IMG/VR virus record: IMGVR_UViG_3300005747_000549
Location: 1 to 24,247 of that record
Reading direction: 5' to 3' (one strand)
Origin: a virus
Length of the DNA: 24,247 nt
Part shown: positions 10,214-23,991 of the stretch, one piece after another
Position numbering within the stretch: position 1 is the first letter of the stretch
Layout: each line of letters starts with the position of its first letter
The notes under the pieces: model-generated
Seen by the model: the letters and a program-made list of their open reading frames with translations, nothing else
Database searches by the model: none
What the model was told of the DNA's origin: nothing
Translations under genes and position numbers: made by a program

Positions 10214-12054
10214 TGAGTATCATAAAAGAAATAGGACCAGTCAAAGATTATATCACAGGTCGCCAAAATTCTAGTAAATCATCTAAATGGAATAATGGCC
10301 GTAAGACCTGGGCGGTTTTTTACGGTACAGATGCAACAAAGATAGGATTAGAAAGTAATCAGATCGACCCGGACTTCAATACGCCACTACCCGGCATAGA
10401 TTCTATAAGTGTAAAGTTTAAAGGCTCACTGGGTTCTCTTAGAGAAGTCACTGTAAATTATACGTGCTGGACTAATGATCAACTGTCAGCAATGAGCAAG
10501 GCTTATATGCAACTTGGTCGAACAGTTGCCGTTTACTTCGGTTGGTCAGTAACTGATGAAGATGATAGAGTTACTATTAATACAGATAAAACATCTAAAG
10601 ACGCATTGAAAGATTTTACAAAGAATGTAAGTAAAACTATAAGCGACAACCGAGGATGTGTCACAGCGTATAAAGGGTTAGTTGATAATTTTACATTTTC
10701 ATTAAATACTAATGGTAGCTATTCATGTATGTGCCATTTTGTAACGCCAGGAGAGGCCGCTTTAGACGTAAATACTGATCTGTCTACTAAGGGAGACAAA
10801 GTTGACCCTGCTAATGAAGACGGTGTTGAGAAGAATCAATCGAATTTAGTGAAATCTATAGTTGCTCTTCGTAAGCATATCATTTCAGAAGAAAAGTCTA
10901 GAGCTGGCGATTGGTTTACAATAACTTTAGAACGTGAACGGGATGAAGAGGAGAAAGCTAATCAAGGTTGGATATCTGCCATTGGCGAGTTTCTTGGAAA
11001 TACTCTTCAAGATACTGACACAGCGTATGTTAGCTTAGGTTACATTGAAGATGAAATTATAAATAAGACTGTATTTCCACTTAATACAAGTGATGAACCC
11101 ATTTATACGTTAAACAGTAGAGATATTGAAGTATCAAATGATGCTTCCGTTCATGCATTAGATCCATTGATAGCACACATTCCAGGTAAAAGTGCATTAG
11201 ACGACTATTCAGAAAGTAAGCCTATACAAGGTCTACCGTCTGTAAATTGGGATGGTCAATTAAGGTCTATCTATATAAACATAAATTACTTACTTTCACA
11301 AGCCTTACAATCGGTAAAACTACAGGACTTTCTAAATTCAGTATTAGGATCTATAAACACGGCCTGTAATGGTAAGTTTGAATTAAGCGTAATCGTTGAT
11401 GAGCAAGACCCATCTTTACTTAAAATTGTTGACAGCAATCATATGGTCGCTGAAACTATACAGCCTTACGTCTTAAACATGTATGGCGTCAATAGTATAT
11501 GTCAAAACGTATCTTTAGACACACAGGTCCCATCAGGTATCAAAGCTCAATTAATATACGGTTCAAACTCTTCAGGTGAAAGTGATTCAAATAACGAATC
11601 CTCTGAATTTAGCTTTCAACCGGGTAAGGATGAGCTTACACCTTCTAATACCGACTTAAAGCAACCTGAATCTAAATTATCTGAAGGAGGCGGAGGTAGT
11701 ACAGATGAAGATCCACAGGGAACATATGAAACCGCGCTGGAAGAAATGTTTAGTGGTGTAGAATCTACAACTATAGATGCTGTAAAAGCCTCATTTAATC
11801 GTTTGCCAATCATAACTGATGAGGTAAAATTAAAGAAGGAAGAAACCGACCCGAATGTACTAGTGCCTTTGAGTCTATCATTTGATCTAGATGGAATAGA
11901 AGGTATTCCGTATGGTTCACTAATACAGGGCAACTTTATACCAGGTGTCTATAAGGACTATGCCGACTTTATGGTAACAGGCGTTTCTCATGATGTTTCA
12001 CCTGATGGATGGAAAACTAGTATAGAAACTGTAATGAGGAGAAAGCAACCGTGA
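10213..12054 (+). CDS. Baseplate hub protein, gp27/gpD-like
   Basis: 613 residues; ATG overlaps the preceding stop (TAATG). The N-terminal region (GIDSISVKFKGSLGSLREVTVNYTCWTNDQLSAMSKAYMQLGRTVAVYFGWS) and YSCMCHFVTPGEAALDV are typical of myovirus hub proteins, and the C-terminus (PLSLSFDLDGIEGIPYGSLIQGNFIPGVYKDYADFMVTGVSHDVSPDGWKTSIETVMRR) matches the end of the late-control-D/gp27 type hub. The hub links tube to central spike. At 613 residues it is larger than gp27 (391). Around 480-505 there is an acidic, Ser-rich linker containing EGGGGS (491-496) that separates the C-terminal segment. No lysozyme motif is evident. Confidence 0.82.
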   Translation: MSIIKEIGPVKDYITGRQNSSKSSKWNNGRKTWAVFYGTDATKIGLESNQIDPDFNTPLPGIDSISVKFKGSLGSLREVTVNYTCWTNDQLSAMSKAYMQLGRTVAVYFGWSVTDEDDRVTINTDKTSKDALKDFTKNVSKTISDNRGCVTAYKGLVDNFTFSLNTNGSYSCMCHFVTPGEAALDVNTDLSTKGDKVDPANEDGVEKNQSNLVKSIVALRKHIISEEKSRAGDWFTITLERERDEEEKANQGWISAIGEFLGNTLQDTDTAYVSLGYIEDEIINKTVFPLNTSDEPIYTLNSRDIEVSNDASVHALDPLIAHIPGKSALDDYSESKPIQGLPSVNWDGQLRSIYININYLLSQALQSVKLQDFLNSVLGSINTACNGKFELSVIVDEQDPSLLKIVDSNHMVAETIQPYVLNMYGVNSICQNVSLDTQVPSGIKAQLIYGSNSSGESDSNNESSEFSFQPGKDELTPSNTDLKQPESKLSEGGGGSTDEDPQGTYETALEEMFSGVESTTIDAVKASFNRLPIITDEVKLKKEETDPNVLVPLSLSFDLDGIEGIPYGSLIQGNFIPGVYKDYADFMVTGVSHDVSPDGWKTSIETVMRRKQP

Positions 12055-12758
12055 CGCGTCTTAGATCTAGTGTAAAGATAAAGTATTTCTATACTTCTGG
12101 TGGTGAATATAAGGTCAAGTCTACTGGACAAGAATATGTAGGACCTTATTTTACTCTCAAAGGTGTTGCATATACAGGCGACAGACAGGTAGATGAGAAG
12201 ACAAATCTATTATTAACAGATTTTAGTATACCGTCACAGGTATTAGTTTACAAGTCTACACTTAAAGACTTTGATGATTTAGCTTCATATCCAGAGCCAT
12301 ACAGACCTACCATCAAGTCTGGATTAGACACAGTTTCTAGAAATTATGCGTACGACCCAATGTATAATCGAATATTTGAGATAGATCCTCAAAAGGCCAA
12401 GTATTATGCCAAGTCTAAACCGTTACGTAAACGTTATCACATAGAAAACATAAATTGGCAACTTAAGGGTCTTTCAGCAATGTATGCTAACTTAGATTCA
12501 ATTGTCAAACTTCCATATCCTAACAGGCTAAAGGATGCTTACTTCAATCCTACTGAGTATGTAAGTGATGCGCCTGCGATATTGACACTTATCGACCTTT
12601 ATCCACTATTTGTGAATATTGAAGATGCAGAAAGGTTTGGTGAATACATGGGCATAGGATCTATGACTCATACACACTTATACAAAGGTCAGACTGGTTA
12701 TATGGCTGCTGGCTCACATTCAGATTTGTCTGAATATAACTTTCCAGTGTCAAACTAA
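12051..12758 (+). CDS. Putative baseplate/structural protein with C-terminal HxH motif
   Basis: 235 residues from GTG 12051, which overlaps the hub stop (GTGA) and has AGGAG about 10 nt upstream. The N-terminus (KIKYFYTSGGEYKVKSTGQEYVGPYFTLKGVAYTG) and the C-terminus (SMTHTHLYKGQTGYMAAGSHSDL) resemble a structural protein type I associate with T4-like aquatic phages. H207, H209 and H223 could bind a metal; HxH metal sites are known in T4 tail-fibre needles (gp12, gp37), but this is not a fibre-like repeat protein. No signal peptide or membrane segment. Its place after the hub gene argues for a baseplate role, but the exact one is unknown. Confidence 0.6.
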   Translation: MTRLRSSVKIKYFYTSGGEYKVKSTGQEYVGPYFTLKGVAYTGDRQVDEKTNLLLTDFSIPSQVLVYKSTLKDFDDLASYPEPYRPTIKSGLDTVSRNYAYDPMYNRIFEIDPQKAKYYAKSKPLRKRYHIENINWQLKGLSAMYANLDSIVKLPYPNRLKDAYFNPTEYVSDAPAILTLIDLYPLFVNIEDAERFGEYMGIGSMTHTHLYKGQTGYMAAGSHSDLSEYNFPVSN

Positions 12759-12775
12759 TTGGGTATATTTAACAT

Positions 12776-13714
12776 GTGCTATCTGAAAATGCGATACAAC
12801 TGAAACAGTGGCTGTATGCCGGCGATACTATTCTAGACGAAGATCTATACATCCCTGCATATCAACATATTCGTAGACTTTATCCTTCAAGACTAGACCA
12901 TAACAAAATACTTCCAGCCTGTAAGGTAAATGAACAGCAAGATCATTTGCAAGGTCTTGATGAGTCAATACCTGATTCACCGGGCTTTGACTATTACAAT
13001 GAAGTCATCTTACCTGCATTTGAAAAAGTTACTTCTAGAGGCCTTTTCATCGGTACTTCAGGTTTTGAGCCAACATACTATAATGTGTTTACAAAGAATG
13101 GGCGAGCTACGAAACGCCATGTTAGTGGAAGTACTGTATATGATAAAACGGGCTTGGCAAGCAAATATAATAGTCGTTATACTAATGGTAAATTGTATGA
13201 AGTAGATTATGATGCGCATCACCTAAGATTAATTAGCAAACAAATAGACTTTACTGCACCTGAAACTAGTTTTCACAGATATCTGGCAAATCACTATTAT
13301 GACTCAGACGACTACAATTATACTGAAGCTAAACAAGTTACATTCCAGGCCATGTATGGTAGAATGCCTGAAGAATTTAATGCTATTAGCTTCTTTAAGC
13401 TTTTGAATGAATTTAAACGGGATCTATGGTCTAAGTATCTAAAAGACGGCTTTGTGGCTTGTCCGACATCAGGTAGACATATCTCTAATAACATCAAGGA
13501 TAGTGGCCAGTTGCTCAATTACTACATTTGTGCTCTTGAAACATGTGAAAATGCCGAAACAATAAACCGCCTTGATATAGTTCCAAGTATGTATGCATAT
13601 GACAGCTTTCTGTTTGATACTGAGACTGCAATAGAAAATATTGTCAGTCAACTACCTCATCCTGTTACAGTCAAAGAGGGCGTTACGTTCCATGACATTA
13701 GATCCAGTAACTGA
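12776..13714 (+). CDS. Minimal family A DNA polymerase-like protein (palm/fingers only)
   Basis: 312 residues; the only initiator in frame after the stop at 12770-12772 is GTG 12776, without a clear ribosome site. Motifs of family A polymerases appear in order: a template-binding-like stretch (YYNVFTKNGRATKRHVSG), motif A EVDYDAHHLRL with D144 in the place of E. coli D705, motif B with K186, F190 and Y194-G195 in the spacing of K758, F762 and Y766, and motif C MYAYDSFLF with D276 in the place of D882. Both metal-binding Asp are thus present. Deviations: His for E710, Tyr for R754, and YDS instead of HDE. There is no 3'-5' exonuclease or 5' nuclease domain. It lies between structural genes and a nuclease-like gene. 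It could be an active gap-filling enzyme or a diverged palm with another role. Confidence 0.75.
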   Translation: MLSENAIQLKQWLYAGDTILDEDLYIPAYQHIRRLYPSRLDHNKILPACKVNEQQDHLQGLDESIPDSPGFDYYNEVILPAFEKVTSRGLFIGTSGFEPTYYNVFTKNGRATKRHVSGSTVYDKTGLASKYNSRYTNGKLYEVDYDAHHLRLISKQIDFTAPETSFHRYLANHYYDSDDYNYTEAKQVTFQAMYGRMPEEFNAISFFKLLNEFKRDLWSKYLKDGFVACPTSGRHISNNIKDSGQLLNYYICALETCENAETINRLDIVPSMYAYDSFLFDTETAIENIVSQLPHPVTVKEGVTFHDIRSSN

Positions 13715-13725: not shown

Positions 13726-14904
13726 ATGATAAGACTAGTAGACATTTTAACAGAGGGTCCCGATACATCCGCAACTACATTATTTCATGAAGTTGCTACT
13801 GGTATCTTTGTAGCCGATCCTTCCGCTAAGATTGAAACCGGCGAAGACATATTACGATACTTCAAAAACGGTACTATACATGCAGTTGATGCAGGTCTAT
13901 CCAAATTAGATATACAAACTCTACCGCAGAATAGATATCTGAATGCTGAATCAATACCGAAACCGGCCTTGATTGCCGATGCTAAATCAATAGCTTCTAA
14001 AATACGATCAAACTTCGGTAGAGCTAAAAAAGTTTGGTGGACTGGTCCTACTAATGATGCATCTAAATTTGGCGCTGCAGATATAGTTGTTGACGGTAAA
14101 TATGGCGTTTCATTAAAATATGGGGCCGGTCAATTAAAAAATCTTACAGTCAACACTTTTGCACAAGCTATTTTAGGTAGTAATCCAAAAGTGAACATCA
14201 TGAAAGAAATCATGAAGGAATATTCTAGTGATTTTAACAAGATGACCGGTGATTGGATGAAACTATTCGTTAAGGAATTTGAACTATCTAAAAACAAAAC
14301 CGCCATAGCTGAAGCTAAAAAATTACAACGTTCTGTTGGTTCAGACTGGTCTAAATATCAGAAACAAAAGATGACACCTGAACAAATAGATCTTCTAGCT
14401 TCTGTTGCAGGGTTAAAAGGTCTAAACGTATCTAAGACTCAGAAAGCCGGTTTAAGGTATTTTTGTAAGAAATTGTTTGAAGTTAAAAAATGGCCTGAAT
14501 GGCAGAAAGTACGTAACGTATACTTCAACAATATTTTTGGCGGTTATTTTAGATCTATTGAACCGGAGATCAAGGCTGGACTAGCTTCTTTATTTAAGAA
14601 GCAATTGTCTGTTCAGGAAAGCGATTTATACTATGCTGCAAAAGGTGGTAAAGACTTTAAGTTTATCCCTGGTGAAAAATCATTTGATACGCTTACAAAA
14701 GATTTGCAGTTTAATTATGAATATAAACCGTATGGCGGCGGATATGAGTTTATCCTCAGTATAGCTAATCCACAAGGTAAAAAACTAGGAACCATATCGA
14801 TTAAGTTTAGATGGAAAGACGGTCAGATGAACGGGTCTATTATAACTACATCGGATGCTAAATGGCTAGTTAAAGATTGGTCTGAAATAATACCTGGAAG
14901 TTGA
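13726..14904 (+). CDS. Putative PD-(D/E)XK-like nuclease, late cluster
   Basis: 392 residues from ATG 13726, no evident ribosome site. The N-terminal half carries a pattern of PD-(D/E)XK nucleases: a conserved-looking helix LFHEVATGIFV with E22, then FGAADIVVDGKYGVSLKYGAG with D119 at the end of one strand and K131 in the next (S-L-K where many families have D/E-x-K), followed by a helix (LTVNTFAQAIL). GVSLK variants occur in several restriction-like families. The C-terminal half (about 310-392) reads as a separate beta-rich domain. I do not recognise a named family. Its position beside a polymerase-like gene hints at a DNA-processing role, but a structural role cannot be excluded. Confidence 0.55.
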   Translation: MIRLVDILTEGPDTSATTLFHEVATGIFVADPSAKIETGEDILRYFKNGTIHAVDAGLSKLDIQTLPQNRYLNAESIPKPALIADAKSIASKIRSNFGRAKKVWWTGPTNDASKFGAADIVVDGKYGVSLKYGAGQLKNLTVNTFAQAILGSNPKVNIMKEIMKEYSSDFNKMTGDWMKLFVKEFELSKNKTAIAEAKKLQRSVGSDWSKYQKQKMTPEQIDLLASVAGLKGLNVSKTQKAGLRYFCKKLFEVKKWPEWQKVRNVYFNNIFGGYFRSIEPEIKAGLASLFKKQLSVQESDLYYAAKGGKDFKFIPGEKSFDTLTKDLQFNYEYKPYGGGYEFILSIANPQGKKLGTISIKFRWKDGQMNGSIITTSDAKWLVKDWSEIIPGS

Positions 14905-14922: not shown

Positions 14923-15312
14923 ATGAAGACCCAATTATTATGTACGTTTACAACGCCTAATTATGTAGCCGGAACAGTAAACAAAATAACGAATCACTAC
15001 ACAATAGTTTTTGGTCGTATATTCATACTTGAAAATGAAGATGACGAAGACGAGCTTATGTGCACCTACAATGTAGAGCAATCTAATTATCAGGCTAGTT
15101 TAGACTCAACGATTAGCTTACACAGAAAGAAGACTACAAATACGTTGTATACTATAAACGCACTTAATGCATTAATCAAACAACTCAACAATGGCGTTTT
15201 AGATCAGTCATATCAAGTTCCATGGAACAACTACCGAAATATGATCATTCTATATGGTGAGTCCGGTCTTAGAGAAGTTCCAACAGCAATTAAAGAAATA
15301 GTAAATCTTTGA
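14923..15312 (+). CDS. Conserved-type hypothetical protein, 129 residues
   Basis: Starts at ATG 14923 with a GGGG stretch upstream. The opening MKTQLLCTFTTPNY and the segments IVFGRIFILENEDDEDELMCTYNVE and HRKKTTNTLYTINALNALIKQLNNGVLD recall a small protein family I associate with T4-like aquatic phages, function unknown. It appears to be a compact alpha/beta protein with an acidic loop (ENEDDEDE). It follows the nuclease-like gene by 18 nt and its stop codon overlaps the -35 box of the next promoter, so it is likely the last gene of the late transcript. Confidence 0.7.
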   Translation: MKTQLLCTFTTPNYVAGTVNKITNHYTIVFGRIFILENEDDEDELMCTYNVEQSNYQASLDSTISLHRKKTTNTLYTINALNALIKQLNNGVLDQSYQVPWNNYRNMIILYGESGLREVPTAIKEIVNL

Positions 15313-15716: not shown

Positions 15717-15741
15717 AGTATTGAACAAAAAACAAAACGAT

Positions 15742-16692
15742 ATGCAATCAAATCTTGGTTATGCCTGTATCAATATGACTTTGCGCGAGCAAGGCATTAC
15801 TACCAACAGGCGCTGTACAAAACGTACATTTGAATCTAAAGGTCTAGACCACATCAGCAATCTTGTGCTAGCTAATGTTACTGACCTTAAGAAAATTATC
15901 CAGTGGAATATTGACAACGACGTTATGCTATTTCGTATATCTAGCAACTTGTTTCCATGGTTTTCTAAATACGATCTACACGATCTCAAAGATTCAAAGC
16001 AAATTCTAAATACGCTGATCGAATGCGGTCGTCTTGCTACTGAAGCAGGTCAACGTCTCAGCTTTCACCCTGGTCAGTTCTGCGTTCTAGCCTCACCTGA
16101 CGAAGCTGTAGTTGCAAATGCTATTGTCGATCTTGACAATCACGGCAAAATATTCGACTTCATGGGTCTCAGTCAGACTCCTTACAACAAGATCAATATC
16201 CATGTCGGCGGTGCTTATGGTGATAAGGCTTCTGCACTCGAACGCTTCTGCAAAAACTTCAAACGTCTTGCACCAAGTACCCAAACGCGGCTTACTGTTG
16301 AAAACGACGACAAAGCAAACATGTTCAGTGTTCGCGATCTATACGAAGGCGTACACAACGTCATTGGCATTCCGATTGTATTTGACTATCACCATCACAA
16401 GTTCTGTACAGGTGATTTGTCTGAGCGTGAAGCCCTTGAACTAGCAATGAGTACCTGGCCTGATACTGTCAAGCCTTGTACACACTACAGCGAAGGTCGT
16501 GACATCGAATACGCTATGAACGGCATCGATGAAAAAGTTACCCCTCGTGCACACAGCGACTATATTTACAACGAGATCGACGATCATGGCTACAGCATTG
16601 ATATCATGGTCGAAAGCAAAGCCAAGGAATTGGCTATTATCGATTATTCTAGCAAATTCCCTTTGGATAGTCAAAAAGAATTAGTATATTAG
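15742..16692 (+). CDS. uvdE: UV damage endonuclease UvdE/UvsE
   Basis: 316 residues from ATG 15742. The frame extends to a TTG at 15721, but the promoter boxes put transcription start after that codon, and family members typically begin a few residues before the LGYACIN strand. The UvdE TIM-barrel motifs are all present in order: LGYACINMTL, LFRISSNLFPW, LSFHPGQFCVL, INIHVGGAYG, LTVENDDK, IVFDYHHHKFC, CTHYSEGRD, PRAHSDYI and MVESKAKE. They supply the His, Glu and Asp metal ligands. The enzyme nicks DNA 5' of UV photoproducts and starts an alternative excision repair. Arginine codons are almost all CGN here, whereas the structural genes favour AGA/AGG, suggesting recent acquisition. The 3' end carries the -35 of the next promoter. 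Confidence 0.95.
   Translation: MQSNLGYACINMTLREQGITTNRRCTKRTFESKGLDHISNLVLANVTDLKKIIQWNIDNDVMLFRISSNLFPWFSKYDLHDLKDSKQILNTLIECGRLATEAGQRLSFHPGQFCVLASPDEAVVANAIVDLDNHGKIFDFMGLSQTPYNKINIHVGGAYGDKASALERFCKNFKRLAPSTQTRLTVENDDKANMFSVRDLYEGVHNVIGIPIVFDYHHHKFCTGDLSEREALELAMSTWPDTVKPCTHYSEGRDIEYAMNGIDEKVTPRAHSDYIYNEIDDHGYSIDIMVESKAKELAIIDYSSKFPLDSQKELVY
16663..16690 (+). promoter_or_regulatory. Early-type promoter upstream of the gp32-like gene
   Basis: TTGGAT (16663-16668, context CTTTGGAT) lies inside the end of uvdE; after a 16-nt spacer comes TATATT (16685-16690) followed by AGTAT. The predicted leader is about 33 nt and contains AAAGGA 7 nt before ATG 16730. Confidence 0.7.
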
Positions 16693-16729: not shown

Positions 16730-17491
16730 ATGGCAATTGACTTAGATGCAATCCGCAAGAAGTTGAATACTCTACAGAATTCAACAAAGAAGTCGTCAAA
16801 TCTTTGGCGCCCAGAACCTGGTAAAAATCAAATTAGACTTGTACCATATCAGTACAACAAGGACAATCCGTTCAACGAGTTGTACTTTCATTATAACATT
16901 GGCAAGAGAAATCACCTTAGCCCTATTACATTTGGTGAAGCAGATCCTGTTGTTGAATTTGCTGATCAACTTCGAAATAGTGGAAACAGCGATGACTTTC
17001 AACTTGCAAAGAAGCTTACACCGAAAATGCGAGTACTAGTCCCTGTTATTGTAAGAGGCAAAGAATCCGAAGGCGTTAAGTACTGGGGCTTTGGCAAGCA
17101 AGTCTATCAAGAGCTTCTTCAATTCTTGGCTGATCCAGACTATGGTGATATTACTGACTTGAAGTCTGGTCGAGATATCACTGTAAACTTTACTCCAGGT
17201 GATGGTAATGGCACTTATGCAAAGACGTCAATTATGGTAAAACCTAATCAGTCACCGGCAACAGAAGATGCCAATCTACTTGATCAAATTGTAAATGGTC
17301 AAGTCGATCTATTTGAAATTTACAAGAAGAAGTCTTACGACGAACTTAAGACTATACTTCAAGAATGGCTCGATGGTGGTGATACTGAAGAGTCTACACA
17401 AGATACATCAACGCAATCGCAAGCTGCAAGTGTCGGTGCAAAATCTACAGGTGATATTGATAGTGCGTTTGACGAACTATTCAATAGCTAA
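16730..17491 (+). CDS. Single-stranded DNA-binding protein, T4 gp32-like
   Basis: 253 residues; ATG 16730 follows AAAGGA. The start (MAIDLDAIRKKLNTLQ, with a basic stretch) corresponds to the gp32 N-terminal region for cooperative self-association. The core WRPEPGKNQIRLVPYQYNKDNPFNELYFHYNIGKR fits the gp32 OB-fold, and the tail is Ser/Thr/Gln-rich ending in acidic DIDSAFDELFNS, the part that contacts replication partners in T4. The protein contains no cysteine, so the zinc site of T4 gp32 is absent. It coats ssDNA in replication and recombination and is adjacent to the recombinase gene, with which it shares a transcript (8-nt gap). Confidence 0.92.
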   Translation: MAIDLDAIRKKLNTLQNSTKKSSNLWRPEPGKNQIRLVPYQYNKDNPFNELYFHYNIGKRNHLSPITFGEADPVVEFADQLRNSGNSDDFQLAKKLTPKMRVLVPVIVRGKESEGVKYWGFGKQVYQELLQFLADPDYGDITDLKSGRDITVNFTPGDGNGTYAKTSIMVKPNQSPATEDANLLDQIVNGQVDLFEIYKKKSYDELKTILQEWLDGGDTEESTQDTSTQSQAASVGAKSTGDIDSAFDELFNS

Positions 17492-17499
17492 GGAGAACT

Positions 17500-18654
17500 A
17501 TGGCTAGAAAAAAGAAAGATACACTAAGTAACGCAAATCTAAGAGACGATTTAGCCGGAACATTAGCCGAAACGCTAAACAATAAATTCAGTGACGTAAA
17601 GGTTGCATATTTTTTAGACGGCACTGAAGAAACACCTACTGATCTTACAGAATGGATTAGTACTGGCTCATCGCTCTTAGATCTAGCCATTTCAAACAGG
17701 CCTGATGGCGGACTACCTGTTGGTCGTATTACTGAAATTACAGGTATGGAAGCTAGTGGTAAATCGCTGATAACCGCTCATGTATTAGCGAATACTCAGA
17801 AGGCCGGTGGTTTGGCTGTATACATCGATACTGAAAATGCCCTTAATGAAGAGTTTGCTAGGGCTATTGGTATCGATGTTAGCCAACTGCTATATATCCA
17901 ACTTGAAGCTGTAGAAGATATTTTTGAAGTTATTGAAAACATCATCTTAAAGGTTCGTGAAAGTGACAAAGATCGTCTAGTAACAATTGCAGTGGATTCA
18001 GTTGCTGCAGCTACTACTAAACTTGAACAAGCAGCTGATTACGAGAAAGACGGATGGGCTACTGCTAAAGCGCTTGTTCTTTCAAAGGCCATGCGTAAAA
18101 TAACGCAGCTTATTGGTCGTCAGCGTATTTGTCTTGTATTTACGAATCAACTCAGACAAAAGTTGGGTGTTAGTTTTGGTGATCCATGGACTACAAGTGG
18201 TGGAAAGGCTTTACAGTTTCATGCAAGTTGTAGATTGAGACTTAAGGGTATGGGCCAAATAAAAGTCAAAGACAAAGAGCTGAAGAAAGAGAACGTAATT
18301 GGTATCAAAACCAAGGCTCAGGTTGTCAAGAATAGAATGGGTCCACCATTGAGAACGGCCGAGTTTGACATCAGATTCGATTCAGGAATTGATGATTATG
18401 GTAGTTGGCTTCAACTTATGAAAGACTATAAGCTAGTTGATCAAGGTGGAAGTTGGTATACATACACTGATACCGAAACTGGTGAAATGACTAAATTCCT
18501 GTCTAAGGACTTTGAAGATAAAATATTACATGATACTAGAATCAAGGATCAAATATATTCTAGAATCTGTGATGCGGTTATAATGTCGTATAAGTCTGAT
18601 GATGTCGGTATTGACGACATAGAAATTGGAACTAATGATCTTCCTGACGGTTGA
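17500..18654 (+). CDS. uvsX: RecA/UvsX-like recombinase
   Basis: 384 residues; ATG 17500 follows AAGGAG, 8 nt after the gp32-like gene. It has a RecA fold: Walker A GMEASGKS (82-89), a catalytic-Glu-like DTENAL (E112), Walker B LVTIAVDS (D166) and a loop region ending SGGKALQFHAS (about 233-243). The P-loop is closer to bacterial RecA (SGKS/T) than to the T4 UvsX GPSKSFKS, while length and C-terminus resemble phage UvsX. It forms filaments on ssDNA, aided by gp32-like and mediator proteins, for recombination-dependent replication and repair. Two in-frame stop codons end the gene (TGA TAA), followed after 95 nt by a terminator. Confidence 0.93.
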   Translation: MARKKKDTLSNANLRDDLAGTLAETLNNKFSDVKVAYFLDGTEETPTDLTEWISTGSSLLDLAISNRPDGGLPVGRITEITGMEASGKSLITAHVLANTQKAGGLAVYIDTENALNEEFARAIGIDVSQLLYIQLEAVEDIFEVIENIILKVRESDKDRLVTIAVDSVAAATTKLEQAADYEKDGWATAKALVLSKAMRKITQLIGRQRICLVFTNQLRQKLGVSFGDPWTTSGGKALQFHASCRLRLKGMGQIKVKDKELKKENVIGIKTKAQVVKNRMGPPLRTAEFDIRFDSGIDDYGSWLQLMKDYKLVDQGGSWYTYTDTETGEMTKFLSKDFEDKILHDTRIKDQIYSRICDAVIMSYKSDDVGIDDIEIGTNDLPDG

Positions 18655-18848: not shown

Positions 18849-19877
18849 ATGAGTAAACAACGCTACAAAGACATCCTAGCCAATCTATCTGAACAACCTA
18901 AAATGGCTCAGGATGATCGTATACTACTTGTTGACGGTCTGAACTTATTTATTCGCAACTTTACAATCAATCCAAGTCAGAATGAAAACGGTGTTCCTGT
19001 CGGCGGCATTAAGGGTTTTCTACTTGGCTTAGGTGCAGCAATCAAGCAAATAAAACCTACTCGGGTTATTATATGCTTTGACGGTAAAGGCGGTTCAGCT
19101 CGTAGACGTAAAATATATCCAGACTATAAAGCAGGTCGTAAACCTGTTATGAGTGCTCACGGTAAAACATTTAGTACTGATGATACTAGGCTTCTGATGT
19201 CACAACAACTCACCAGGCTTACGGACTATCTATCTGTATTACCTGTAACTGTTATGTCAACTGAAAATATTGAAGCTGACGATGCTATCGCATACATAGC
19301 AAAGCAGATCTATCCAGATTCAAACAAGTTCATTATGTCAACAGACAAGGACTTTCTACAACTGGTCGATGAAAAATGCTGCGTATGGTCCCCGACAAAA
19401 AAGGTATTCTATTTCAGGAATGAAGTTCAAGAATTATTCGGTATTATGCCTGAAAATCTGGCAGTATTACGTGCTATATTGGGCGACAAGTCTGACAATA
19501 TTTCAGGCGTACAAGGTGCAGGCTTAAAAACTATACAGAAAGCAATTCCTTCACTATTTGGTGAAAGCAAGATAACAATAAACGGCCTTTTTGATCTTAT
19601 AGAGCAGTCTGATTCTACTGCTAAAGTCTGTCAAAGAATACTCGACAATAAAGACATTGTCAAAGTCAACTATCGTATTATGCAACTATATGATGTAGAA
19701 GTTTCAGGTTATGCTCGTGAATCGTTACTGAATATCACAAGTAAACCTGTGCAAGCCTTAAATATGGTCAAGTTCATTCAAATGTTGACTGAAGATTCAA
19801 TGCATCTTCTCAAAAACTTAGACTTGTGGCTCAGATCAGTATGGGTTCCAATTGACGCAATAAGGGATAACAAATGA
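18849..19877 (+). CDS. 5'-3' exonuclease / RNase H, T4 Rnh-like (FEN family)
   Basis: 342 residues from ATG 18849; no ribosome site visible. It has the PIN-like core of phage 5' nucleases: ILLVDGLNLFIRNF (D29), VIICFDGKGGSARRRKIYPDYKAGR (D78 and the basic patch), TENIEADDAIAYIA (E142, D144, D145), IMSTDKDFLQLV (D166, D168) and the helix-hairpin-helix region AILGDKSDNISGVQGAGLKTIQ (D213, D216). These supply the two-metal site. T4 RNase H (305 residues) removes RNA primers from lagging-strand fragments with gp32 and the clamp. Its stop overlaps the helicase start (ATGA), so the two are probably coupled. Confidence 0.93.
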   Translation: MSKQRYKDILANLSEQPKMAQDDRILLVDGLNLFIRNFTINPSQNENGVPVGGIKGFLLGLGAAIKQIKPTRVIICFDGKGGSARRRKIYPDYKAGRKPVMSAHGKTFSTDDTRLLMSQQLTRLTDYLSVLPVTVMSTENIEADDAIAYIAKQIYPDSNKFIMSTDKDFLQLVDEKCCVWSPTKKVFYFRNEVQELFGIMPENLAVLRAILGDKSDNISGVQGAGLKTIQKAIPSLFGESKITINGLFDLIEQSDSTAKVCQRILDNKDIVKVNYRIMQLYDVEVSGYARESLLNITSKPVQALNMVKFIQMLTEDSMHLLKNLDLWLRSVWVPIDAIRDNK

Positions 19878-21229
19878 GCGATAGATTAAGTGATTATGGA
19901 TACAGTTTTCAAATTAAGATTGTATCAGCCTTACTTCGGGACTCTAGCTTTTTACAGCAAGTCCATGATATACTAGAAGGTAGTTATTTTGAAAATGACT
20001 CTATACGTTGGCTATGTGAGTCTGTCATAAGCTATCATCTTAAGTACAAGGAGTCTCCGACCCTGGAAGTATTTAAGGTTATGTCTAGTGAAGTGGAAGA
20101 CGCTGTACTAAAGACTCAGATAGTCGACAACTTAAAGGACGTTATAGCTAATTTAGAAGCTACAGACCTGGAGTTTGTTAAAGCACAGACAATAGACTTT
20201 TGTAAGAATCAGAATCTGAAAAAGGCTATTATGACTTCCGTAGACTTATTACAGTCAGGCGACTATGACGGCATCAAGACTACTATAGACACTGCAATGA
20301 AGGCCGGCACTGAAAGGAATATTGGTCTTGAATATGCAGATAATGTCAAGGAGCGCTATACAGTGAATATTAGAGATTGCATACCTACTGAATGGGATGT
20401 AATAAATAATTTAGCAGATGGTGGCTTAGCAGGCGGTGAATTAGGCGTATTTGTTGCTCCTGCTGGTATAGGTAAATCATGGGCATTAGCTAATGTAGGA
20501 GCTCATGCTGTTAAAAAAGGAAAAACCGTAGTCCATTATACATTAGAGCTCAATCAGAATTATGTTGGTCTCAGGTATGATAGTATTTTTACAGGTATTT
20601 CGGCTCAAGAGCTAAAGTACAATATAGATGATGTTGAAAAAGTTGTCAATAATCTTAAAGGCGAGTTGATCGTTAAATACTTTCCTACTAAAGGAGCTAC
20701 TGTAAATTCACTTGCAGCACATATTGAAAAGTGCAGAATTCAGGGTAAAAAACCGGACATGGTTATAGTTGACTATGCAGACCTGTTACGTGGACAAGGC
20801 TTAAATAATCGCGAAGTCCGTCATGAACTAGGTAATATTTATGAAGATCTTCGAGGTCTAGCCGGTGAGTTAGATGTTCCAATCTGGACTGCTTCTCAAG
20901 CCAATAGAAGTGCAATTAATGAGGAAATAATACAGGCTGATAAGATCGCAGAGTCATATTCTAAGATTATGATTGCCGATTTTGTAATATCTTTAAGTCG
21001 TAAACTTGAAGACAAAACGGCTAACACTGGACGTTGGCATTTAATTAAGAACAGGTTTGGTCCTGACGGTATAACATTCCCTAGTAAAATGAATGCAGGC
21101 AATGGTCATATTGAGATATATGAGCCTAATTCTGCACAGGGTCAAGAAACGCAACAAGAAATAAATCAAGGCAGTGAGTATATTAGAAAAATGCTCAAAG
21201 ATAAATTTGCCAATATGCCTCAACAGTAA
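19874..21229 (+). CDS. Replicative DNA helicase, DnaB/T4 gp41-like
   Basis: 451 residues; the start ATG overlaps the nuclease stop. The N-terminal helical part (about 1-150) matches the DnaB N-domain type. The C-terminal RecA-like motor has Walker A APAGIGKS (195-202), a HYTLELNQ segment, Walker B MVIVDYADLL (D300) and a WTASQANR sensor stretch followed by a basic region. The length is close to T4 gp41 (475). It unwinds the fork 5'-3' as a hexamer and recruits primase. No intein or insertion is evident. Confidence 0.93.
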   Translation: MSDRLSDYGYSFQIKIVSALLRDSSFLQQVHDILEGSYFENDSIRWLCESVISYHLKYKESPTLEVFKVMSSEVEDAVLKTQIVDNLKDVIANLEATDLEFVKAQTIDFCKNQNLKKAIMTSVDLLQSGDYDGIKTTIDTAMKAGTERNIGLEYADNVKERYTVNIRDCIPTEWDVINNLADGGLAGGELGVFVAPAGIGKSWALANVGAHAVKKGKTVVHYTLELNQNYVGLRYDSIFTGISAQELKYNIDDVEKVVNNLKGELIVKYFPTKGATVNSLAAHIEKCRIQGKKPDMVIVDYADLLRGQGLNNREVRHELGNIYEDLRGLAGELDVPIWTASQANRSAINEEIIQADKIAESYSKIMIADFVISLSRKLEDKTANTGRWHLIKNRFGPDGITFPSKMNAGNGHIEIYEPNSAQGQETQQEINQGSEYIRKMLKDKFANMPQQ

Positions 21230-21282: not shown

Positions 21283-23139
21283 ATGGACGTCTCCACTTCG
21301 ATTCTTAGTGATATCACAGTTTATATGAAATATGCAAAATATAATGAAGACCTACAACGCAGAGAAACATGGTCTGAAATCGTAGATCGTAATAAGGCTA
21401 TGCATATAAAGAAATATCCAGATTTGAAGTCCGAGATTGAAGATGCATATAAGCTTGTATATGACAAAAAGGTTCTACCATCAATGCGCAGTCTACAATT
21501 CGGTGGAAAGCCTATTGAAATTTCACCGAACAGGGTATACAACTGTGCATATTTACCTATTGATCATCCTGATTCATTTAGTGAAGTCATGTTCCTGCTA
21601 CTCGGCGGTACTGGCGTTGGCTATTCTGTACAGCGTCATCATGTAGAATCACTACCTGAAATCAGAAAACCATACGTAAAACGAACAAAGCGCTTTTTAG
21701 TAAGTGACAACATCGAAGGCTGGGCAGATGCCATCAAGGTTTTGCTTCAAAGTTATTTTAAGGGCGGCTCTAGTATCAAATTTGACTTTTCAGATATTAG
21801 ACCTAAAGGTTCTAGGTTAATCACTTCAGGTGGCAAGGCTCCAGGTCCGCAGCCACTTAAGGAATGTATACTAAAACTTAAAGGGATCTTAAATGAGAAA
21901 CAAAATGGCGAGAAGCTCTCGACTCTTGATGTCCATGATATGGTTTGCCATATTGCTGATGCCGTTCTTGCTGGTGGGATTAGGCGTGCAGCGCTTATAT
22001 CGCTATTTAATGCAGACGATGACGAAATGATATCATGTAAGGCTGGCGATTGGTGGGAACTTAATCCTCAGCGAGGTCGAGCAAACAATTCTGCAGTACT
22101 TATGCGACATAAAGTTACCAAAGAGTTCTTTATGGACCTATGGAAGCGAGTAGAACTTTCAGGTGCTGGAGAACCCGGTATCTATTTGAATAATGACAAA
22201 GACTGGGGTACAAATCCTTGTTGTGAAATTGCACTACGACCTTATCAGTTCTGTAATCTTTGTGAGGTAAATGCTAGTGATATTGAGTCTCAGGAAGACT
22301 TTGAAGCCAGGGTAAAAGCTGCTACATTGATTGGTACTTTACAAGCTGGATATACAGACTTTCATTATTTGCGAGAAATCTGGAGAGAAACAACTGAAAA
22401 AGATGCATTGATAGGTATTTCAATGACAGGCATTGGCTCAGGAACAGTACTTGGCTATGATATGTCATCGGCTGCTAATCTTGTAGTTAAAGAAAATAAA
22501 AGAATTGCCAAACTAATTGGCATCAATTCATCTGCACGTGCTACTACTGTAAAACCTGCAGGTACAACCAGTCTTGTTCTTGGTACCAGTTCAGGTATTC
22601 ATGCATGGCACAATGATTATTATATTAGACGTATTAGAGTTGGCAAAAATGAGGCTATATATACATACTTATCTATATACCATCCTGAACTAGTAGAGGA
22701 TGAGTATTTTAGACCTCATGATACTGCTGTTATCAGCATTCCACAAAAAGCACCTCAAGGAGCTATTTTGAGAACAGAATCACCGTTTGCTCTTCTTGAA
22801 AGAATAAAAAAGGTATCATCAGAATGGGTAAAACCCGGTCATCAGAAAGGTTCTAACTCACATAACGTTTCAGCAACTGTATCATTAAAAGAGGATGAAT
22901 GGTCCGATGCCGGTGAATGGATGTGGGAAAACAGGGACTATTATAACGGTCTATCTGTATTACCTTACAACGGTGGAACATATACTCAAGCACCATTTGA
23001 GGATATTACGGAAGACAAATACAATGAGCTGCTATCCAGTTTAAAGGAGGTCGATTTGACCAAAGTTATTGAGGTAGAAGACATGACAGATCTTTCAGGT
23101 GAATTAGCATGTGCAGGTGGGCAATGCGAAGTACAGTAA
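21283..23139 (+). CDS. Adenosylcobalamin-dependent ribonucleoside-triphosphate reductase (class II, monomeric)
   Basis: 618 residues; ATG 21283 follows AAAGGA. It reduces ribonucleotides to deoxyribonucleotides for phage DNA synthesis using a cobalamin radical, so it needs B12 from the host or environment. Landmarks follow the Lactobacillus leichmannii enzyme: C88 (VYNCAYLP, cf. C119), N311-P-C-C-E315 with C313 and E315 as the thiyl Cys/Glu pair (cf. C408, E410), C324 eleven residues later (cf. C419), and the C-terminal shuttle pair C610 and C615 (CAGGQC, cf. C731/C736). Also present are LLLGGTGVGYSVQ and VKPAGTTSLVLGTSSGIHAW. At 618 versus 739 residues it is shorter than that enzyme, so some insertions are missing. 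An extra Cys (C314) follows the catalytic one. Confidence 0.95.
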   Translation: MDVSTSILSDITVYMKYAKYNEDLQRRETWSEIVDRNKAMHIKKYPDLKSEIEDAYKLVYDKKVLPSMRSLQFGGKPIEISPNRVYNCAYLPIDHPDSFSEVMFLLLGGTGVGYSVQRHHVESLPEIRKPYVKRTKRFLVSDNIEGWADAIKVLLQSYFKGGSSIKFDFSDIRPKGSRLITSGGKAPGPQPLKECILKLKGILNEKQNGEKLSTLDVHDMVCHIADAVLAGGIRRAALISLFNADDDEMISCKAGDWWELNPQRGRANNSAVLMRHKVTKEFFMDLWKRVELSGAGEPGIYLNNDKDWGTNPCCEIALRPYQFCNLCEVNASDIESQEDFEARVKAATLIGTLQAGYTDFHYLREIWRETTEKDALIGISMTGIGSGTVLGYDMSSAANLVVKENKRIAKLIGINSSARATTVKPAGTTSLVLGTSSGIHAWHNDYYIRRIRVGKNEAIYTYLSIYHPELVEDEYFRPHDTAVISIPQKAPQGAILRTESPFALLERIKKVSSEWVKPGHQKGSNSHNVSATVSLKEDEWSDAGEWMWENRDYYNGLSVLPYNGGTYTQAPFEDITEDKYNELLSSLKEVDLTKVIEVEDMTDLSGELACAGGQCEVQ

Positions 23140-23391: not shown

Positions 23392-23991
23392 ATGAATTTT
23401 ACAAGAGAGCAAATTGAAACAGCAGTAAAATCTAAAGGTTACAAATGGTTTGAGAATGGTAATTACAATCTTAACATTGTAGGTGTTAGAAATTCTGAAA
23501 CACATGATGAAGTGACTAATAAGTTCGACGATTTGGTCACTGTAACATATAAAGTTGGAAATGATTGGAACTTTCATCAATGGAACGCAACAACTGATCC
23601 AGGTAAATATTACACTGAAAACCTACTCAATTCAGACGGCGTTGCTATCATGGTTCCAGGACAATATCGAAGCTCTCATGTGCTTGGAATGCATCAAGGC
23701 AAATATAAAGCTTTGAAACAGGCCAGACCTGTAAAAGTATATCGAGACTCTAATAGAGATAACTGTTATGATATGGATCCAGCAAAAATCCAAGAAGGTA
23801 TCTTTGGTATTAACATTCATAGAGCTTCAGCATCTGGAACTTCAACTCAGATAGACAAATGGAGCGCCGGTTGTCAGGTTATTGCTAATTATGAAGACTT
23901 TAACAAGCTGATGTGGCTAGCAATTCAGGCTGAAGACATCTGGGGTAATTCATTTACATATACACTCATTGAGAGTAAAGATCTTGTTTAA
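23392..23991 (+). CDS. YkuD-like (L,D-transpeptidase fold) phage protein, candidate lysis enzyme
   Basis: 199 residues from ATG 23392; AAAAGGT upstream is a weak ribosome site. The C-terminal half contains FGINIHRASASGTSTQIDKWSAGCQVI: H143, S158, G160 and C161 match the H...SxGC catalytic signature of YkuD/L,D-transpeptidase-type peptidoglycan enzymes. The preceding VLGMHQGKYKALKQARPVKVYRDSNRD and the N-terminal helix recall a conserved phage protein I have seen without firm function. No signal peptide, so it would act in the cytoplasm unless helped out, for example by a holin. Next to it is a partial two-helix membrane protein. A lysis role is inference; a metabolic or cell-wall-modifying role is possible. 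Confidence 0.65.
   Translation: MNFTREQIETAVKSKGYKWFENGNYNLNIVGVRNSETHDEVTNKFDDLVTVTYKVGNDWNFHQWNATTDPGKYYTENLLNSDGVAIMVPGQYRSSHVLGMHQGKYKALKQARPVKVYRDSNRDNCYDMDPAKIQEGIFGINIHRASASGTSTQIDKWSAGCQVIANYEDFNKLMWLAIQAEDIWGNSFTYTLIESKDLV

Follow-up and report, generated by a model that had tools for sequence, protein, structure and literature searches.

The closest described system is divPolA1, a polymerase family that was described in 14 phages in 2024 (Yutin et al., 2024, Virol J 21:200, PMC11348598). According to the main text of that paper, phages with divPolA1 always also carry a regular DNA polymerase of family A, B or C. As described there, the neighbouring replication genes of divPolA1 are conserved, the thumb is truncated and the exonuclease domain is inactivated, all three of its catalytic aspartates having been lost; the protein was proposed to retain polymerase activity and to act in replication (PMC11348598). 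A full-text literature search for the name divPolA1 found only Yutin et al. and its preprint, and no mention of a form lacking the exonuclease domain was found in the main text of PMC11348598.

Here, we have analyzed a stretch of viral DNA of 24,247 nucleotides (IMG/VR record IMGVR_UViG_3300005747_000549; hereafter, the window), in which a first-pass annotation had pointed out that a T4-like phage encodes a second polymerase, a family A protein of reduced size with neither an exonuclease nor a 5' nuclease domain. Our results support this claim. The second polymerase is real, but its family is not new, having already been described as divPolA1 (PMC11348598). Our findings agree with that description and add to it more than 500 stretches encoding relatives in viral contigs (among the matches listed), the presence of the gene in all testable loci, invariant substitutions in the active site, a clade that is associated with the UV-damage endonuclease UvdE and lacks the exonuclease domain, and additional divergence in the copy of the window. 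The gene concerned is the following:

12776-13714, plus strand: divPolA1-type mini-polymerase, short (exonuclease-less and thumb-less) form, 312 aa, identified by its ORF, fold, HMM and residue conservation

This ORF is intact and begins with GTG. An in-frame TAA lies two codons (6 nt) upstream of the start, and the GTG aligns with the ATG starts of short-form relatives; on the basis of both observations, the start is considered sound.

The window protein is truly related to bacterial DNA polymerase I but has been strongly shortened and consists of palm and fingers only. By itself, it had no match in Pfam, PHROGs or PDB sequences in single-sequence searches, and a four-sequence profile also had no match in the PDB. 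Its kinship with polymerases was settled only through its relatives and its structure. Relatives were found by tblastn with E-values from 1e-25 to 2e-8, including a 484 kb uncultured phage (1e-25), gene 1 of Flavobacterium phage immuto (MW353175-MW353177; 4e-21 over 80% of the query) and Microcystis phage Mel-JY01 (2e-8). Immuto gene 1 matched the DNA_pol_A model PF00476 (E 4.6e-11; 42.7 bits, cut-off 34.3), and so did 42 of 50 aligned relatives at an E-value of 0.01 or better, the window protein by itself being unmatched. The HMM of the mini-polymerase family also found E. coli PolA, in an alignment that spans motifs 1, A, B and C; no significant detection of immuto gene 71 or T7 gp5 was obtained with it. 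A search of genome contigs returned seven matches, all in metagenome-assembled genomes (several of them flavobacterial), which is consistent with phage contigs that had been binned into genomes.

The right-hand palm fold expected by the first-pass annotation was indeed predicted. The AlphaFold model of the window protein, built with a 50-sequence alignment, had a mean pLDDT of 91 and a pTM of 0.87, and the PDB entries matched by Foldseek, with a best E-value of 1.7e-10 and a probability of 1.00, were those of Pol theta, Bst Pol I and Pol nu. A 425-aa long-form relative (L021) was matched with the Klenow fragment (E 1.4e-18, TM 0.74-0.76).

The catalytic motifs of the window protein are located as follows:

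13103-13105, plus strand: R110 of motif 1, which corresponds to R668 in Pol I; in the window copy, the motif around it has diverged
13205-13222, plus strand: motif A, from D144 (= D705) to H149 (= E710), both invariant (131/131)
13319-13360, plus strand: motif B, with Y182 (= R754), K186 (= K758), F190 (= F762) and Y194-G195 (= Y766-G767)
13598-13606, plus strand: motif C, Y275-D276-S277 (= H881-D882-E883), identified by residue conservation

The motif A Asp, the K...F...YG of motif B and the motif C Asp are present, in this order, on the predicted palm fold. When mapped against E. coli PolA, the residues D144, K186, F190, Y194 and D276 were all found where they had been placed before, and the three departures from consensus noticed at that time are real: E710 is replaced by H149, R754 by Y182 and HDE by Y275-D276-S277. 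Thus, the consensus R754, E710 and HDE of family A are lacking in the window protein, and these departures are family-wide. Among 131 relatives (non-redundant at 95%), D144, H149, K186, F190, Y275 and D276 were present in 131/131 and Y194 in 130/131, although conservation of the motifs in this set is partly circular, as motifs A and C had been used as patterns in the first search for relatives. Position 182 is Tyr as a rule (Glu or Val in a few relatives) and position 277 is Ser or Ala. The same residues, including both catalytic Asp, whose loss in homologues would have spoken against the first-pass annotation, were found in 34 of 34 independent members that had been collected through the neighbouring gene Z rather than through motifs. 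The invariance of H149 and Y275 in both sets (131/131 and 34/34) indicates that they are fixed traits of the family and not signs of decay.

These two residues could also be taken to reflect an altered choice of nucleotide, in which the active site suits ribonucleotides and the enzyme has a primase-like or RNA-patch activity. This idea is based on the invariant His at the E710 steric gate and on the Y-D-S/A of motif C, which recalls the H-D-S found in motif C of T7-type RNA polymerases, and such invariant departures (131/131) speak for specialization rather than drift. However, at the F762 position the protein retains the Phe of DNA polymerases (F190), where T7-type RNA polymerase has a Tyr; the His still places a bulky side chain at the steric gate; and immuto encodes a separate DnaG primase. 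We therefore regard an altered nucleotide choice as distinctly improbable.

Comparison with E. coli PolA revealed that the protein has lost more than the first-pass annotation had listed, since the thumb is absent too. Only 21 residues separate the pre-thumb glycine from the motif 1 arginine in the window protein, compared with 124 in E. coli PolA and 20-40 in the family, and hence the thumb is essentially gone; approximately 103 residues are missing here relative to E. coli PolA, a gap that is also visible in the HMM alignment. The fingers are shortened (30 residues from the YG of motif B to GY, compared with 46 in PolA), and the spacing in the palm from motif 1 to motif A is retained (34 residues, 37 in PolA). 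Two size classes could be distinguished: proteins of 387-457 aa with an N-terminal domain and proteins of 312-348 aa without it. One starred set (96) of a quick tree was made up of 17 rows that each belong to the short class; the window is among them, although its long branch makes its exact placement unsure. This grouping suggests a single loss of the exonuclease domain. The short (312-348 aa) form, which has lost even the inactive exonuclease domain, forms a single clade and is accompanied by UvdE.

The window copy is the most divergent member of the family. Its motif 1 reads NGRATK in place of the TGRPSN of the relatives; in the 131-sequence set, the relatives have T (rarely A), P, N and N where the window copy has N108, A111, K113 and S117. 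In addition, the position of Q849 is occupied by C252, and nearly all other members keep the Gln. The motif 1 changes are not sequencing errors, because they are also present in a relative (L004) with 95% identity to the window copy. Between these two genes, dN/dS was approximately 0.16 over 203 codons (17 synonymous and 11 non-synonymous changes), which indicates that the gene is under purifying selection.

Such divergence raises the alternative that the polymerase fold has been reused for a non-polymerase or regulatory role, as in an inactive paralogue that serves, for example, as a DNA-binding protein or a scaffold of the replisome. The absence of the thumb, the loss of R754 and E883, the replacement of E710 and H881 and the further changes of the window copy at motif 1 and Q849 could all be explained in this way. 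On the other hand, the equivalents of D705, D882, K758 and F762 are unchanged in 131/131 relatives and that of Y766 in 130/131, and inactive paralogues normally lose their metal ligands first. A dead fold is therefore unlikely, and so is the reuse of the fold for another task.

The genes surrounding the mini-polymerase in the window are listed below:

12051-12758, plus strand: gene X, conserved neighbour directly upstream, no family match (69/83 loci in the first set, 148 loci in the larger set)
13726-14904, plus strand: 392-aa protein between the mini-polymerase and gene Z, no family match (homologue only in L028)
14923-15312, plus strand: gene Z, 129 aa, no Pfam or PHROG family (downstream of the mini-polymerase in 178 loci, upstream in 0)
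15721-16692, plus strand: UvdE-type UV-damage endonuclease (PF03851, E 1e-61)
16730-17491, plus strand: single-strand DNA binding protein (SSB) of the T4 gp32 type (phrog_1192, E 5e-27)
17500-18654, plus strand: UvsX/RecA-like recombinase (phrog_97, E 2e-71)
18849-19877, plus strand: 5'-3' exonuclease of the Pol I N-terminal-domain/FEN type, a separate gene (PF02739, E 3e-31; PF01367, E 2e-7)
19874-21229, plus strand: DnaB-like replicative helicase (phrog_19, E 8e-74)

The recurring order is hub, LysM protein, hub, X, mini-polymerase, Z, SSB, UvsX, 5'-3' exonuclease, helicase and ribonucleotide reductase, and the order of markers was unbroken in all 191 loci that contain at least four of the eight marker genes. 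Examination of 85 loci located through gene Z revealed that 51 carry the mini-polymerase and that in the other 34 the sequence ends no more than 2.5 kb upstream; the mini-polymerase was absent from none of the 51 with enough upstream sequence. The first-pass annotation had placed the gene far from the replication block. In the window, however, SSB starts only 3.0 kb downstream (at 16730), followed by UvsX (17500), the FEN-type 5' nuclease (18849, 5.1 kb downstream) and the helicase (19874), and all genes between the mini-polymerase and the helicase are either replication/repair genes or small unclassified ones. Given this downstream run and the unbroken order, the mini-polymerase is located at the junction between hub and replication genes. 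It probably forms an operon with the replication run, as judged from orientation and spacing. Further downstream, positions 21283-23139 encode a ribonucleotide reductase with weak matches to the barrel and B12-dependent insertion-domain models (PF02867 and PF21995), possibly of class II, and positions 23392-23991 encode a 199-aa protein without a Pfam match, whose H...SAGCQ stretch recalls L,D-transpeptidase-like or lysis proteins.

The first-pass annotation had proposed a virion-packaged or late-acting enzyme encoded together with the baseplate. In favour of this proposal, almost every locus has hub genes directly upstream in the same orientation. Replication genes, however, are found directly downstream just as constantly, no T4-type late promoter octamer was found upstream of the gene in 77 loci, and the extra domain of the long forms is exonuclease-like, of the Pol I type, and not a virion domain. 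The placement on which this proposal relied thus does not hold, and we consider a virion or late role extremely improbable.

UvdE was found in 12 of the 14 short-form loci that span the region from Z to SSB and in none of 75 long-form loci. It should be noted that this link comes from one clade and may reflect one acquisition. Gene Z is core to this phage clade and has an invariant HRK...N..YTIN motif. It occurs in the same six named phage records as the mini-polymerase. A two-part polymerase could be imagined, in which the thumb-less protein is the catalytic subunit and a partner grips the DNA in trans; gene Z would be the best candidate for this partner because it lies downstream wherever both genes were seen and is found in the same named phages. 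In that case, the active site would have been rebuilt, and the invariant His and Tyr at the E710 and H881 positions would be parts of it. It is just as possible that gene Z is simply one more core gene of the clade, since its co-occurrence with the mini-polymerase fits both views, and we consider such a two-part enzyme improbable.

We also analyzed the main replicase of phages that carry the mini-polymerase. In 24 records (excluding G049, as its contig ends before the mini-polymerase), the separate replicase belonged to family B in 17, was a full-length family A enzyme in 4 and belonged to family C (PF07733) in 3. Thus, the general statement that T4-like phages replicate with a family B polymerase fails across this group. 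In the quick tree, the labelled rows with family A could be separated from the remainder by a branch, and so could those with family C. This clustering of replicase families on the mini-polymerase tree indicates that the mini-polymerase persists while the replicase changes. The nearest relatives of the window have a family C replicase, and none is encoded on the 24 kb window fragment itself. One of the family B records, the 484 kb LR756508, has family B matches in two ORFs approximately 5 kb apart as well as a family C match (260623-266900 and 47415-48068), so that up to three polymerase types may coexist in it. In the contig of L018 (G001, 113366-114467), a family C match is distributed over two adjacent frames of 447 and 750 aa, which may represent a split gene, an intein or a frameshift. 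Comparison of profiles between the full polymerase of immuto and the mini-polymerase was not significant, and the former was rejected as a parent of the latter by this test. A search for replicases in other records that started from immuto gene 71 gave no match.

Pol I is an accessory gap-filling enzyme that combines a polymerase and a 5' nuclease in one chain and participates in Okazaki-fragment maturation and repair. The mini-polymerase is most probably neither the phage replicase nor a virion enzyme. Its role is predicted to be distributive gap filling or patch synthesis in maturation or repair, to which we assign a probability of roughly 55%; gap filling had already been suggested by the first-pass annotation and is now the leading idea. 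Our degrees of confidence in the different explanations are judgements rather than calculations, and they overlap in part. The protein is a putative metal-dependent, template-directed DNA polymerase of low processivity, in which the catalytic set is retained, namely the two metal-binding Asp and the equivalents of K758, F762, Y766 and R668. Synthesis is expected to be distributive because the thumb, whose role in Pol I is known, is missing. In the predicted scheme, the mini-polymerase would add short patches at gaps and nicks, and the 5' end, displaced or RNA-primed, would be cleared away by the separate FEN-type nuclease, a division of labour that Pol I achieves with its two halves. These intermediates would also be acted on by SSB and UvsX. 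Such work would comprise Okazaki-fragment maturation and gap or excision repair, and in the exonuclease-less clade it could include UV repair initiated by UvdE. A recognizable ATP-dependent ligase was present in only 3 of 12 records checked and an NAD-dependent ligase in none of 10; since few records encode a ligase, the sealing of nicks would rely on that of the host in many of them. Against gap filling, a protein that lacks both the thumb and the R754 equivalent is expected to bind DNA and dNTP less tightly, and motif 1 and the Q849 position (C252) have changed as well in the window copy.

A translesion or recombination-primed polymerase is a possible, though doubtful, alternative. Such an enzyme would extend mismatched or lesion-blocked 3' ends, or D-loops made by UvsX, when the replicase has stalled, and its open, thumb-less active site would tolerate damage. 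UvsX is adjacent to the mini-polymerase, as is UvdE in the short-form clade, and the mini-polymerase has been maintained across three types of replicase. Pol theta and Pol nu, which are among the best Foldseek matches of the window model, are translesion enzymes of family A. However, the matches with these two and with the high-fidelity Bst Pol I are nearly equal, the long form matches the Klenow fragment best, and the insertion typical of Pol theta was not found in the mini-polymerase. With regard to fidelity, the short form has no proofreading domain and that of the long form is inactivated (PMC11348598, as described in its main text), which would also suit translesion synthesis.

The association with UvdE leads to a concrete hypothesis of repair. 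More generally, divPolA1 is a core gene of an abundant uncultured group of T4-like phages and has been kept while the replicase swaps among families B, C and A; for this reason, it is a good test case for the need of phages for a second polymerase. We infer that the short form, which has no thumb and no nuclease, may be among the smallest natural palm-and-fingers enzymes of family A that are known, and its biochemistry would reveal how far the Pol I architecture can be pared down without loss of DNA synthesis.

Finally, the mini-polymerase could be compared with known systems. It shares with divPolA1 of immuto the sequence family, the gene order beside replication genes, the truncated thumb and the catalytic residues of the palm. 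The two divPolA1 representatives shown in PMC11348598 keep an inactivated exonuclease domain, whereas the clade of the window (312-348 aa) has none; as the inactivated 3'-5' exonuclease domain is wholly absent, we classify the window protein as a variant of divPolA1. Unlike other divPolA1 proteins, the window copy has also diverged from the TGRPSN of motif 1 and lost the Q849 equivalent. The divPolA2 protein of barbaviruses is similar in being a second family A polymerase without thumb and exonuclease beside a family B replicase, but it differs, by its description in the same paper, in that its N-terminal domain is unrelated and its neighbouring genes vary (PMC11348598). The palm and fingers motifs are homologous to those in the Klenow part of E. 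coli PolA, from which the mini-polymerase differs by the absence of a thumb and of a working 3'-5' exonuclease, by a 5' nuclease encoded separately and by changes at E710, R754, H881 and E883. The replicative family A polymerases of phages, such as immuto gene 71 and T7 gp5, have the family A core in common with the mini-polymerase, but they are, unlike it, full-length replicases with an exonuclease and a thumb.
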